The notes beneath the pieces are model-generated. The model did not search any database. It worked only from the letters and a program-made list of their open reading frames with translations, and was not told the DNA's origin. Shown in pieces: positions 45,818 to 49,185 of a DNA stretch of 64,000 nucleotides (position 1 is the stretch's first letter; each line of letters opens with the position of its first letter). The stretch lies in NCBI GenBank assembly GCA_938039675.1, contig CALHUI010000007.1, positions 186,001 to 250,000 on the forward strand. The letters run 5' to 3'. A program made the position numbers and the translations under genes. The stretch comes from an uncultured Cytophagales bacterium (GTDB lineage Bacteria > Bacteroidota > Bacteroidia > Cytophagales > Thermoflexibacteraceae).

Positions 45818-47389
45818 TCACAATTCCACCACCACAAAGCGATTGTCAAAAGGATTAAAAGTTGCTTTTAGTTCATCTAACAACTCCATATTGTTGAGAA
45901 GGAACGTTAAAAAATTCTCCGAACGCTCCTGTAATCCACCCGAAGGAAACAGTTGCTCTCGCAACCATGTCCATTGCCGAATAGTAGCTTCGTATTTACG
46001 TTCCTGAGCTTTGCGTATTTTACCTGCTATATGGAGCAACTTCTTCTGGGTTAGTACTTTTTGTGCCTGTGCAGTTTTCAATAAGGTAGCATCTGCCTGC
46101 ACGGCTTTGGCTATGATTAGGTCAAATTGTTGGGCAATTGCCTCTATTTCCTGCCGTATGTGCGTATAATGATTTTGTTCGCGCAGAATAATTTTTTGCT
46201 TGTTATCGGCTTCGGATGCAAAAATATCCATTACGGTAAGCCCGATTTTTTCCAACCTGTTTTGATGTGCTTCGTTCAGCAGCAAGGCAAAATTACGGGG
46301 CAGCAGCAGCGGCATCGGCACATCAAATGCTTCAAACATTTCTTTGAGTTGCAGCCAGTAGGCCAACTCGCCGGGGCCTCCCGTGTAGCTCAGGTTGGGC
46401 AGAATCATTTCCTGATACAGCGGGCGCAAAATAACATTAGGACTAAACTTTTCAGGATGTACTTCCGCAAGCCGGAGCAGTTGCTCTTCTGTGAAGGTAA
46501 GGTTGGTATTGAGTACCCTAAAAATGCGTTCTTGCACCTTGTGCTCTACTGTAATGCGCTCCCGTAGGTGATTGTCTAAGTAAAAAAGATTGATTTCGCG
46601 GGGTGTAACCTGTGCCTTATACCCTAAACTTGTCAGTTTTTCGGTTGTATGCTTCACTGCATAAAAAGAGGTCTGCTCACTTATTTCACGACGCAAAGCA
46701 GGCAAAAACAGGCGTTTCAGTGCCGCATCATCGCCGTCTATCACCATCAGTCCGTCCTTGCCGTAGAAATAATGTACGATTTTGCGGGTTGCATCTGCTA
46801 ATGTCGGGCTGTTTGCATAGGACTCTGTAAATATATGGTGCATTTCTGGGGCAAGGCGTGCTAGCTGCACAAGGCTCTGCGGATTAAATCGGCCTACTGC
46901 ACCTTTTTCGGTGGTGTGCCAAGTATATTTTTTACCAAACAGCCTGAAATGGCTGATTTCGTCGGCATCGTGGTCTTCGCTTGCCATCCAATAGACCGGC
47001 ACAAAGTCATAGGCTGGGTACAATGCTTTGAGGCGTTTGGCCGTATTGATAACAGTAATGATTTTATAATGAAAATACAGTGGCCCGGTAAAAATATTGA
47101 GCTGATGGCCGGTAGTAACCGTAAATGTGGTCGGTTTGGTAAGCAGTGCTACAGTTTCAGGCAACATACATTTTCCCTGCTCATATTGCCTCATAATTAC
47201 CTGATGTAATATTAATCTATTTTCTGCATGGAATACTGACTGTTTTACATCAATTATATCACCAAAAGCAGTTTCCACAGGCCATTCCCTAATAAAAGGT
47301 TTCAATGAGTCATCCTGACGAACATATTGTAAAAATAATTTAGAGAATTGTCGGGTTTCTTCAGGGGCAAAGTAGGCAGTGCTCTTCAT
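45818..47389 (-). CDS. bshC: Bacillithiol biosynthesis cysteine-adding enzyme BshC
   Basis: BshC adds cysteine to glucosaminyl-malate in the last step of bacillithiol synthesis. The 523-residue protein has TTGHQLNIFTGPLYFHYKIIT (nucleotide-binding region), VPVYWMASEDHDADEISHFR (the signature WMASEDHD), LSYTGGPGELAYWLQLK and the long C-terminal coiled coil (about residues 380-500) ending QERSENFLTFL. Bacteroidota use bacillithiol widely. No bshA or bshB is nearby. It diverges from the secreted-protein gene at 47491 and converges on the M43 protease. Confidence 0.94.
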   Translation of the reverse strand: MKSTAYFAPEETRQFSKLFLQYVRQDDSLKPFIREWPVETAFGDIIDVKQSVFHAENRLILHQVIMRQYEQGKCMLPETVALLTKPTTFTVTTGHQLNIFTGPLYFHYKIITVINTAKRLKALYPAYDFVPVYWMASEDHDADEISHFRLFGKKYTWHTTEKGAVGRFNPQSLVQLARLAPEMHHIFTESYANSPTLADATRKIVHYFYGKDGLMVIDGDDAALKRLFLPALRREISEQTSFYAVKHTTEKLTSLGYKAQVTPREINLFYLDNHLRERITVEHKVQERIFRVLNTNLTFTEEQLLRLAEVHPEKFSPNVILRPLYQEMILPNLSYTGGPGELAYWLQLKEMFEAFDVPMPLLLPRNFALLLNEAHQNRLEKIGLTVMDIFASEADNKQKIILREQNHYTHIRQEIEAIAQQFDLIIAKAVQADATLLKTAQAQKVLTQKKLLHIAGKIRKAQERKYEATIRQWTWLREQLFPSGGLQERSENFLTFLLNNMELLDELKATFNPFDNRFVVVEL

Positions 47390-47417: not shown

Positions 47418-47450
47418 TTTGCACCATTTGTAGCAAATGGAGTAAATTTG
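47418..47450 (+). promoter_or_regulatory. Promoter with palindrome between its two boxes
   Basis: TTTG (47418-47421), 21 nt, TAAATTTG (47443-47450) fits the Bacteroidota promoter for the 47491 gene. A perfect inverted repeat CCATTTG-tag-CAAATGG (47424-47440) fills the spacer, a position where a bound protein would block polymerase; it is a candidate operator. Confidence 0.5.
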
Positions 47451-47490
47451 AAGGTTTTGTTCGTGTAAAGTTAAACCTATAAGTATCGGA

Positions 47491-48156
47491 ATGAAATTAC
47501 TTGCCGCAATTTTCTTGTTCTTATGCTGTATAAGGGGCACCTACGCACAAACTAACTCACTTAGATTTCGCATCACGCATTTCAGAGAAGTCAGCGGATG
47601 TACGAAAAATCAGGGCATCGTTTTTGAGCAGGGACACATTTCTGCCAAAGACATGACAAAGCCGACAATCGTAACTATTTACTTTGAAAAAAATAACGGA
47701 GCTTTTGTAGCTATGCGCAGAACCTACCCTGCGGGCACGGTCAATGTTAAACTCAACATATTTGACTGCGACTATACCGGCAATCACTACGCCTACATCA
47801 AATACGCCGATGATATAGATTTCAACTTCCCCACCGTTGATGAAGTATATAGAAGACATAAAGAAGTATTGGCAACCAGCAAGCCGGAGTGTTTGGTTGC
47901 TACCGTTAGAGCCAACCCCAAATGCCCGCATTCTTACCGCATTGAAAAAGGGATTGTTTACTCTCCCGCCGGAGGCCGTGTAGATGTTAAGCTGCTCATA
48001 GAAACCACATCGGGCGAATGGCGCACCCTGCATTTGTATCGCTATGGCACAGGGCCTATATCTATCAACTATGCCGCCTGCGACTTGACCGGCAAAACCA
48101 ACCCTATTGCAAGTTTTGGATACAACGTAAATTTGTCCGAAGCATACAAAAACTAA
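47491..48156 (+). CDS. Secreted protein with an internally duplicated cysteine-pair domain, function unknown
   Basis: A 221-residue exported protein: signal peptide MKLLAAIFLFLCCIRGTYAQ, then two domains of about 75-80 residues. Domain 1 (about 25-108) has C37, GIVF (42-45) and CDYTG (93-97). Domain 2 (about 136-212) has C145, GIVY (154-157) and CDLTG (197-201). The spacing of the cysteine pairs is similar (56 and 52), and both halves share a V/L-K-L-x-I-strand pattern, so they are paralogous. Each pair likely forms a disulfide. I recognise no family. There is no T9SS sorting domain, so the periplasm or outer membrane is the likely location. The gene has a clear promoter with a palindrome, and holA follows 3 nt later. 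Confidence 0.75.
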   Translation: MKLLAAIFLFLCCIRGTYAQTNSLRFRITHFREVSGCTKNQGIVFEQGHISAKDMTKPTIVTIYFEKNNGAFVAMRRTYPAGTVNVKLNIFDCDYTGNHYAYIKYADDIDFNFPTVDEVYRRHKEVLATSKPECLVATVRANPKCPHSYRIEKGIVYSPAGGRVDVKLLIETTSGEWRTLHLYRYGTGPISINYAACDLTGKTNPIASFGYNVNLSEAYKN

Positions 48157-48159
48157 ATC

Positions 48160-49185
48160 ATGTCGGCAAACGCTGAAAGCATACTAAAAGACCTCAAAGC
48201 AGGAAAAACCGCCCCCCTGTATTTTTTGCAGGGCGATGAGCCCTACTACATTGACTTGCTCAGTGATTATGTTGAAAATGAGCTGCTTCGCCCCGAAGAA
48301 CGCGGTTTTAACATGACCGTTGTTTACGGCAGAGATACGAACATGCAGGGAATTATCAATGCGGCAAGGCGTTTCCCCGTAATGGCACAACGACAGGTGG
48401 TGCTGGTAAAAGAGGCGCAGGATATGAGCGATTGGAACAGCGACAAAGCCAAAGAAATGTTGCTGCGCTATACAGAAAAGCCTGTACCTTCTACTTTGCT
48501 CATGTTTTGTTACAAATATAAAAGGCTGGATGCGCGCACGCAACTTGCCAAGGCACTTGCCAAAAATGCAGTTGTGGTAGAAACCAAAAAACTTTACGAC
48601 AATCAGCTTGTAGGCTGGGCAAAACAGTACTTTGCGAGCAAGGGTTTCCAGTCGTCGGATAAAGCCAATGCCATGCTGGCCGAATTTATCGGAAATGACC
48701 TCTCGCGCATGGCCAACGAAATAGACAAACTGCTGATTAACTTTTCTGACAAAAATATTACCATCACCGATGAAGAAATCACACGTTATGTCGGAATCAG
48801 CAAAGAATACAACTCTTTTGAGTTGCAAAGTGCCATTGCCCAGCGCAACATTCTGAAAGCCAACAAAATAGTTAATTATTTTGCCGCCAATCCAAAAAAC
48901 AATCCGGCCATTCCTGCTATTGCGTTGTTGTTTGGCTACTTTACCAAAATTTTACAGATACACGAAAGCTCTGATAAGAGTAAGCAGGACGTTGCTTCGC
49001 TGTTGGGTATCAATCCCTACTTTGCTGAAGAGTACATAGCTGCTGCTCGCATCTACACCCGCGAGAAGGCAATACAGGCTATTCACCTGCTCTATCAGGC
49101 AGACTGTCGCGCTAAAGGCATTGACAGCACCATGGAAGACGAGGACATCTTGCGTGAACTTGTTTATCGCTTGCTTCACCTGTAA
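48160..49185 (+). CDS. holA: DNA polymerase III subunit delta
   Basis: The delta clamp-loader wrench that opens the sliding clamp. The 341-residue protein shows APLYFLQGDEPYYIDLLSDYVE (AAA+-like N-terminus), PVMAQRQVVLVKEAQDMS, LGSDLSRMANEIDKLLI-type segment (GNDLSRMANEIDKLLI), ITDEEITRYVGISKEYNSFELQSAI and IRIA-like C-terminal helices ending DEDILRELVYRLLHL. It starts 3 nt after the secreted-protein gene, so the same promoter and any operator there would also drive it unless an internal one exists. It converges on rng with a terminator between. Confidence 0.92.
   Translation: MSANAESILKDLKAGKTAPLYFLQGDEPYYIDLLSDYVENELLRPEERGFNMTVVYGRDTNMQGIINAARRFPVMAQRQVVLVKEAQDMSDWNSDKAKEMLLRYTEKPVPSTLLMFCYKYKRLDARTQLAKALAKNAVVVETKKLYDNQLVGWAKQYFASKGFQSSDKANAMLAEFIGNDLSRMANEIDKLLINFSDKNITITDEEITRYVGISKEYNSFELQSAIAQRNILKANKIVNYFAANPKNNPAIPAIALLFGYFTKILQIHESSDKSKQDVASLLGINPYFAEEYIAAARIYTREKAIQAIHLLYQADCRAKGIDSTMEDEDILRELVYRLLHL

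Follow-up and report, generated by a model that had tools for sequence, protein, structure and literature searches.

An unnamed Cytophagales protein family with two paralogous units, paired cysteines and a predicted signal peptide

By title, the described proteins that come closest in structure to the one studied here are mostly Ig-like sandwiches, and the matches are weak. The Ig-like beta-sandwich domain of GH2 proteins (6byc, 5t98 and 6d50) sits in a large hydrolase, and FnIII and cytokine-receptor proteins (1qr4 and 9eza) carry two Ig-like sandwiches in tandem. Shew_1734 (3o0l) is a DUF1425 protein, and CsgH (2n59), the curli inhibitor, is a small beta sandwich from a bacterial envelope protein.

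The protein that we compare with them is encoded in DNA of an uncultured bacterium of the order Cytophagales. We analysed a stretch of 64,000 nucleotides, called the window below (assembly GCA_938039675.1, contig CALHUI010000007.1, positions 186,001 to 250,000 of the forward strand), and all coordinates without a locus label refer to it. Here, the whole protein consists of two paralogous units of about 90 residues each. We read it as an exported, non-enzymatic envelope protein in which two Ig-like modules, each stapled by a disulfide, would serve a binding or scaffold role, and we put the probability of this reading at roughly 0.55.

The gene, its neighbours and its family

The gene lies on the forward strand at 47491..48156, stop codon included (open reading frame 47491 to 48153, stop codon at 48154-48156), and encodes 221 aa. 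We measured dN/dS against two congeners and obtained 0.14 for the nearest and 0.11 for a more distant one, where dS is 1.87 and near saturation. The value of 0.14 is that of a gene under purifying selection and therefore of a real gene; for the same nearest-congener pair, holA gave 0.06. The divergent upstream neighbour is bshC (45818..47389, reverse strand), which was recognised by its Pfam BshC domains. On the other side, and on the forward strand, is holA for the DNA polymerase III delta subunit (48160..49185; Pfam DNA_pol3_delta, E 5.2e-16).

An initial annotation of this DNA, made from the sequence, had pointed out that the gene precedes holA by 3 nt and that its control would thus affect a replication gene too. 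The 3-nt gap and the common strand stand, with holA starting at 48160, but the adjacency on which the wider claim depends is genus-specific. In 4/4 congeners holA directly follows the gene, in one of them with an overlap, while in all eight other family genomes that have a holA match the preceding gene of holA is something else (a thirteenth family genome has no holA match and is outside this count). The holA link is a feature of one genus, with 4/4 congeners against 0/8 other family genomes. A functional tie of the gene to replication, for which the short gap and the arrangement in the congeners speak, is very improbable given these eight genomes and the signal peptide borne by the product.

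We clustered the neighbours of the 46 family members in search of an operon partner common to the whole family and found none; no neighbour is general across the 46, and neighbours change between genera. One neighbour cluster supplies a divergent gene at 10 loci (L020, L026, L028, L029, L067, L068, L071, L074, L092 and L093), which together carry 11 family members and belong to other genera, from two families of the order. The one example identified, at L074, is an ADP-glyceromanno-heptose 6-epimerase (TIGR02197, E 1.8e-117). In 11 members a protein of 876-889 aa is encoded upstream on the same strand (at L063, L064, L065, L081, L082 and L095-L099, and at L062 with one gene between). The one example searched, from L065, resembles the models for OmpA-like CHU_0125 (E 5.2e-60) and PorE (2.3e-48), both below the cutoffs. 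The epimerase and OmpA-type neighbours are envelope genes and give no more than a hint of an envelope link, possibly to the outer membrane. One family gene is followed on its own strand, after some 50 nt, by a gene for a DsbD/thioredoxin-like protein (L071:5065-5661).

With the single window protein, a contig search of genomes found no relative; an alignment query then gave 14 loci. A search of 39 genomes, the window's own included, gave matches in 11. A 16-row alignment matched 35 of 390 sampled genomes of the order, in 13 of 129 genera. The profile of a single unit matched the same 35 genomes, in open frames of 152-280 aa, and no fusions to other domains were seen among the 390. In a sample of the phylum, the window's own genome was the only match among 395. 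No relative was found in viral contigs, in phage records queried with the protein of one relative, or in plasmid records queried with the window protein. By record name, the carriers include Thermoflexibacter ruber, Flexibacter sp. and Bernardetiaceae MAGs.

The 100 family open reading frames on overlapping loci amount to 46 distinct proteins when compared over the last 120 residues. In the tree of these proteins, the genus of the window forms one clade (support 100/100) on a long branch (1.46), nested in one of the two paralogue groups of its family. Two family paralogues stand in tandem at L020:7253-8636 and lie on different contigs in two other genomes of that genus.

The initial annotation had recognised no family, and our searches of Pfam, NCBIfam, PHROGs and the PDB sequences likewise gave no convincing match. 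The best in Pfam was zf-DNA_Pol (E 0.016, in 1/16 members), the best in NCBIfam had an E-value of 0.0019 (1/16 members), and the best in PHROGs was the unnamed phrog_19465 (E 0.0019, in 4/16 members), with none for the window protein. We also considered the phage tail tube (Pfam Tail_tube, E 0.018, 2/16 members), which for the window protein is below that family's cutoff, and rejected it. This is an unnamed family, known from one order only in the samples searched, and a compact and well-bounded one whose members are predicted to be exported.

The promoter and the palindrome within it

PMC7366714 quotes a consensus promoter with TTTG at -33 and TAnnTTTG at -7, and PMC9723704 gives the same -7 consensus. 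Upstream of the gene, on the forward strand, we found both: TTTG as a candidate -33 element (47418..47421) and TAAATTTG as a sigma-A-type -7 box of the form TAnnTTTG (47443..47450). In 4/4 congeners a TAnnTTTG motif precedes the start codon by 46-52 nt, and the motif occurs in 19 of the 46 family upstream regions, where 8.7 would be expected. The full two-box promoter is present in two of the 46, those of the window genome and its nearest congener (0.36 expected). We judge from these motif counts that the promoter is credible.

Between the boxes is a perfect 7-3-7 palindrome, CCATTTG-TAG-CAAATGG (47424..47440, unstranded), 2 nt from TTTG and 2 nt from TAAATTTG. The initial annotation had seen it and had called the gene 'probably repressed'. 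If the palindrome were an operator, a dimeric repressor bound to it would shut off the gene and, via read-through, lower holA. Its perfect form and its position, which fits the space from the -33 to the -7 element exactly, favour an operator, as does its uniqueness: the 3.28-Mb genome holds only this perfect copy, besides two sites that differ by 1 mismatch. A 7-3-7 palindrome turns up in Markov copies of the 101-nt intergenic region with a probability of 0.013. However, the chance rises to 0.077 for any 7-(0..8)-7 palindrome, and the window as a whole is rich in such elements, with 12 palindromes of the 7-3-7 type against 5.1 expected (about twice the number in Markov copies) and 55 with spacers of 0-6 nt against 34.3 expected. 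Across the family, some 7-(0..8)-7 palindrome lies upstream in 16 of 46 homologues, near the background of 12.75.

Comparison within the genus bears on the same question. Counted by eye, 7/7 Watson-Crick arm pairs in the window become 6/7 in the closest congener, which would suit an operator, but 5/7 in the next, and in the fourth congener the palindrome is not seen. The -7 box is kept throughout. Upstream of the gene in the third and fourth congeners there are different palindromes with 7-nt arms, unrelated to this one.

The initial annotation had proposed looking for the motif elsewhere in the genome, and this search also went against repression. If up to 2 mismatches are allowed, 42 sites resemble CCATTTGNNNCAAATGG, that of the window included, compared with 12 for a backward-read control pattern, an excess that counts for an operator. 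Despite this excess, we read all 42 sites and found that none supports a regulon. We looked for TAnnTTTG within 14 nt of each of the 41 other near-copies and found it at 0/41. Of these 41, 39 fall within open frames of 100 aa or more and 2 fall outside; as 90% of the window is covered by such frames, this proportion is near background. In other words, the palindrome decays in the congeners while the -7 box stays, and its near-copies do not adjoin a -7 box, which leaves an operator distinctly unlikely. Most probably the palindrome arose by chance in an AT-rich promoter and is local to it. Attractive as it is, it is shown by these comparisons not to be a conserved control element.

Duplicated units and paired cysteines

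Three parts follow the leader on the forward strand: unit 1 with C37 and C93 (47548..47826), a linker containing H123 (47827..47877) and unit 2 with C145 and C197 (47878..48132). The initial annotation had described the units as paralogous. BLASTP of the window protein's own halves is suggestive only of such a duplication, with an E-value of 0.003 over 37 residues only. When we instead built half profiles from the 45 two-unit homologues, HHalign aligned them over 88 columns with a probability of 99.85% and an E-value of 1.2e-30, which confirms the paralogy. The shared motifs are also as described: each unit has an early cysteine and one in C-D-[YL]-T-G (C37 and C93, C145 and C197), and the GIV(F/Y) strand appears as GIVF and GIVY stretches. 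A fifth cysteine of the mature protein, C134, was absent from the earlier description. One case of a unit standing alone is a homologue of 129 aa (L089:4659-5045), which ends after the linker region and occurs in the same genome as the two-unit copy L072; this suggests a modular unit.

The distribution of the cysteines over the 46 members is strongly paired. C37 and C93 are present in all 46. Of C145 and C197, 38 members have both, 7 have neither and none has just one; the remaining member lacks unit 2. A further pair, C104 and C111, is present in 18 and absent in 28, again never singly, and judged by eye its state changes more than once on the tree; the window protein is without it. Because these pairs are gained or lost together across the 46 homologues, disulfides within the units are likely, and we predict one per unit, with an optional third elsewhere in the family. 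Cysteine pairs do not account for every cysteine, as there are unpaired columns at C134 (4/46 members, including the window protein) and at C43 (10/46).

The seven members without both unit-2 cysteines (L069 and L083-L088) keep the unit-1 pair and belong to another family of the order. They form one clade, with support of 98/96; therefore, the loss of C145 and C197 was probably a single event.

The cysteines could also be read as a redox or metal site, which would make this a thiol-disulfide or metal-handling protein. Consistent with that are the invariance of C37 and C93, the presence of H123 in all 45 two-unit members, the odd fifth cysteine in the mature window protein and the DsbD/thioredoxin-like gene that adjoins the relative at L071. 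Yet the sequence of the mature protein has no CxxC motif, the seven members that lack both unit-2 cysteines keep the rest of the pattern, and none of the family libraries gave a convincing match. We consider such a site improbable, and structural disulfides the better reading.

Export, fold and comparison with known proteins

In most Bacteroidetes substrates of signal peptidase I, Gln follows the cleavage site and is cyclised to pyroglutamate, a regularity that PMC5837995 calls the Q-rule. Residues 1-19 of the window protein (47491..47547, forward strand) were read, by eye rather than with a predictor, as a signal peptide cleaved after TYA, so that the hydrophobic leader MKLLAAIFLFLCCIRGTYA is directly followed by Q, as the Q-rule describes. 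This agrees with the initial annotation, which had called the protein secreted, and from this leader we infer export and cleavage between A and Q. By mechanical count, AQ occurs within residues 15-40 in 20 of the 46 members; the third family (f18) has 21 members, of which 16 are without it. The chain terminates shortly after unit 2. We found no type IX C-terminal sorting domain: at E <= 1 the window protein had no NCBIfam match, and the 3 models that one or more of 16 members matched do not include a sorting domain.

AlphaFold2 modelled the mature protein with confidence (pLDDT 92, pTM 0.83). Each unit is all-beta and has six strands, and the linker between them holds an alpha helix (mature residues 97-110). 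Unit 2 modelled alone also has six strands (pLDDT 94.8, pTM 0.81). The initial annotation had proposed a structural search with one unit, and the neighbours that it yields are weak and generic. The best VIA-align Z was 6.7 for the whole mature model (68 residues at 2.6 A) and 6.4 for a single unit (71 residues at 2.8 A), and the neighbours are mostly Ig-like by title, namely the GH2 sandwich, complement macroglobulin domains, FnIII/cytokine-receptor domains and the designed DIG14. A Z below 8 can reflect merely a common arrangement; therefore, we take an Ig-like sandwich as the best reading of the models and claim no superfamily membership.

Other searches were in keeping with this caution. 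With Foldseek against the PDB, the sole match of the whole protein at E <= 0.001 was VPS26B (E 8.4e-4, TMq 0.21, rmsd 21), and no match of a single unit reached E 0.001; for the single unit, the best TMq among the matches listed was 0.57, to a DUF1425 protein. At E <= 0.001 a viral fold library gave two matches, its best, with rmsd 17; one of them (E 8.7e-4) bears the annotation of a carbohydrate-binding protein. The G (seventh) strand of the Ig-like fold is absent from both six-stranded units. The canonical disulfide between strands B and F is not found either: by model and alignment, the conserved cysteines fall in the two loops that follow strand 1 and precede the last strand.

Sandwiches that lack the G strand might accept a strand from a partner or from the next copy, and the protein would then be a fibre subunit, or a chaperone or inhibitor of fibres. 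The six strands of both units, the end of unit 2 soon after its sixth strand and the presence of the curli inhibitor CsgH among the weak Foldseek matches would fit. But the units are modelled confidently without a partner strand (pLDDT about 95), the CsgH match, at E 0.18, is non-significant, and no neighbour is common to the family, so no usher-like partner is indicated. We regard strand donation as unlikely. A bolder form of it, in which a lineage-restricted tandem Ig-like family without the G strand takes the donor strand from a partner and forms or guards a fibre of the Cytophagales envelope, the palindrome then being a recent operator at the species level, is a long shot.

We therefore return to an exported envelope protein with a binding or scaffold role as our preferred reading. 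It is favoured by the leader with Q after the cleavage site, the duplication, the confident fold, the pairing of the cysteines, the dN/dS of 0.14, the lack of fusions among the unit-profile matches, the envelope-related neighbours and the viral match annotated as carbohydrate-binding. Against this role, no ligand, partner or conserved operon was found, and the Ig-like part of the reading faces weak structural matches (best Z 6.7, best TMq 0.57 among the matches listed) with no sequence homology. The probable single origin of the unit-2 cysteine loss, the unpaired C134 and C43 and the scarcity of AQ in f18 also count against the reading. Transcription would start from the sigma-A-type promoter, and in this genus read-through would probably carry holA along. 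Export through Sec, with removal of residues 1-19 by signal peptidase I, would leave a Gln at the N terminus, predicted to cyclise to pyroglutamate. In the oxidising periplasm the mature chain would fold into two Ig-like beta sandwiches joined by the helical linker, with one predicted disulfide per unit (C37-C93 and C145-C197) joining the loop after the first strand to the loop before the last. The product would act in the periplasm or at the cell surface as a two-module binding or scaffold protein, like tandem Ig-like or FnIII-like proteins. Both the binding role and the envelope location, like the read-through, are put forward here as proposals. For a new domain entry, the confident model, the clear duplication and the strongly paired cysteines are enough.

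The described proteins named at the outset compare with the units as follows. CsgH matched a unit in the Foldseek search with a TMq of 0.40, non-significant at its E-value. Shew_1734 has the single-unit TMq of 0.57 that is best among the matches listed, with rmsd 3.4, and a VIA-align Z of 5.5 at 11% identity to the unit; a DUF1425 profile match was not found in Pfam at E <= 1 for the window protein or the 16 aligned members. The GH2 sandwich is alike over the whole unit (81-82 residues aligned, Z 5.9-6.1, below 8) at 6-13% identity, but it is one part of a large hydrolase, whereas two units make up the entire protein here. The FnIII and cytokine-receptor domains are alike in having two sandwiches in tandem; with both domains aligned together, the rmsd is 8.6-9.3, and there is no sequence match. 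The order of E strand, C-D-x-T-G-x-Y and F strand in the family is reminiscent of the tyrosine corner. A difference from the FnIII and cytokine-receptor domains is that the family cysteines lie between loops.
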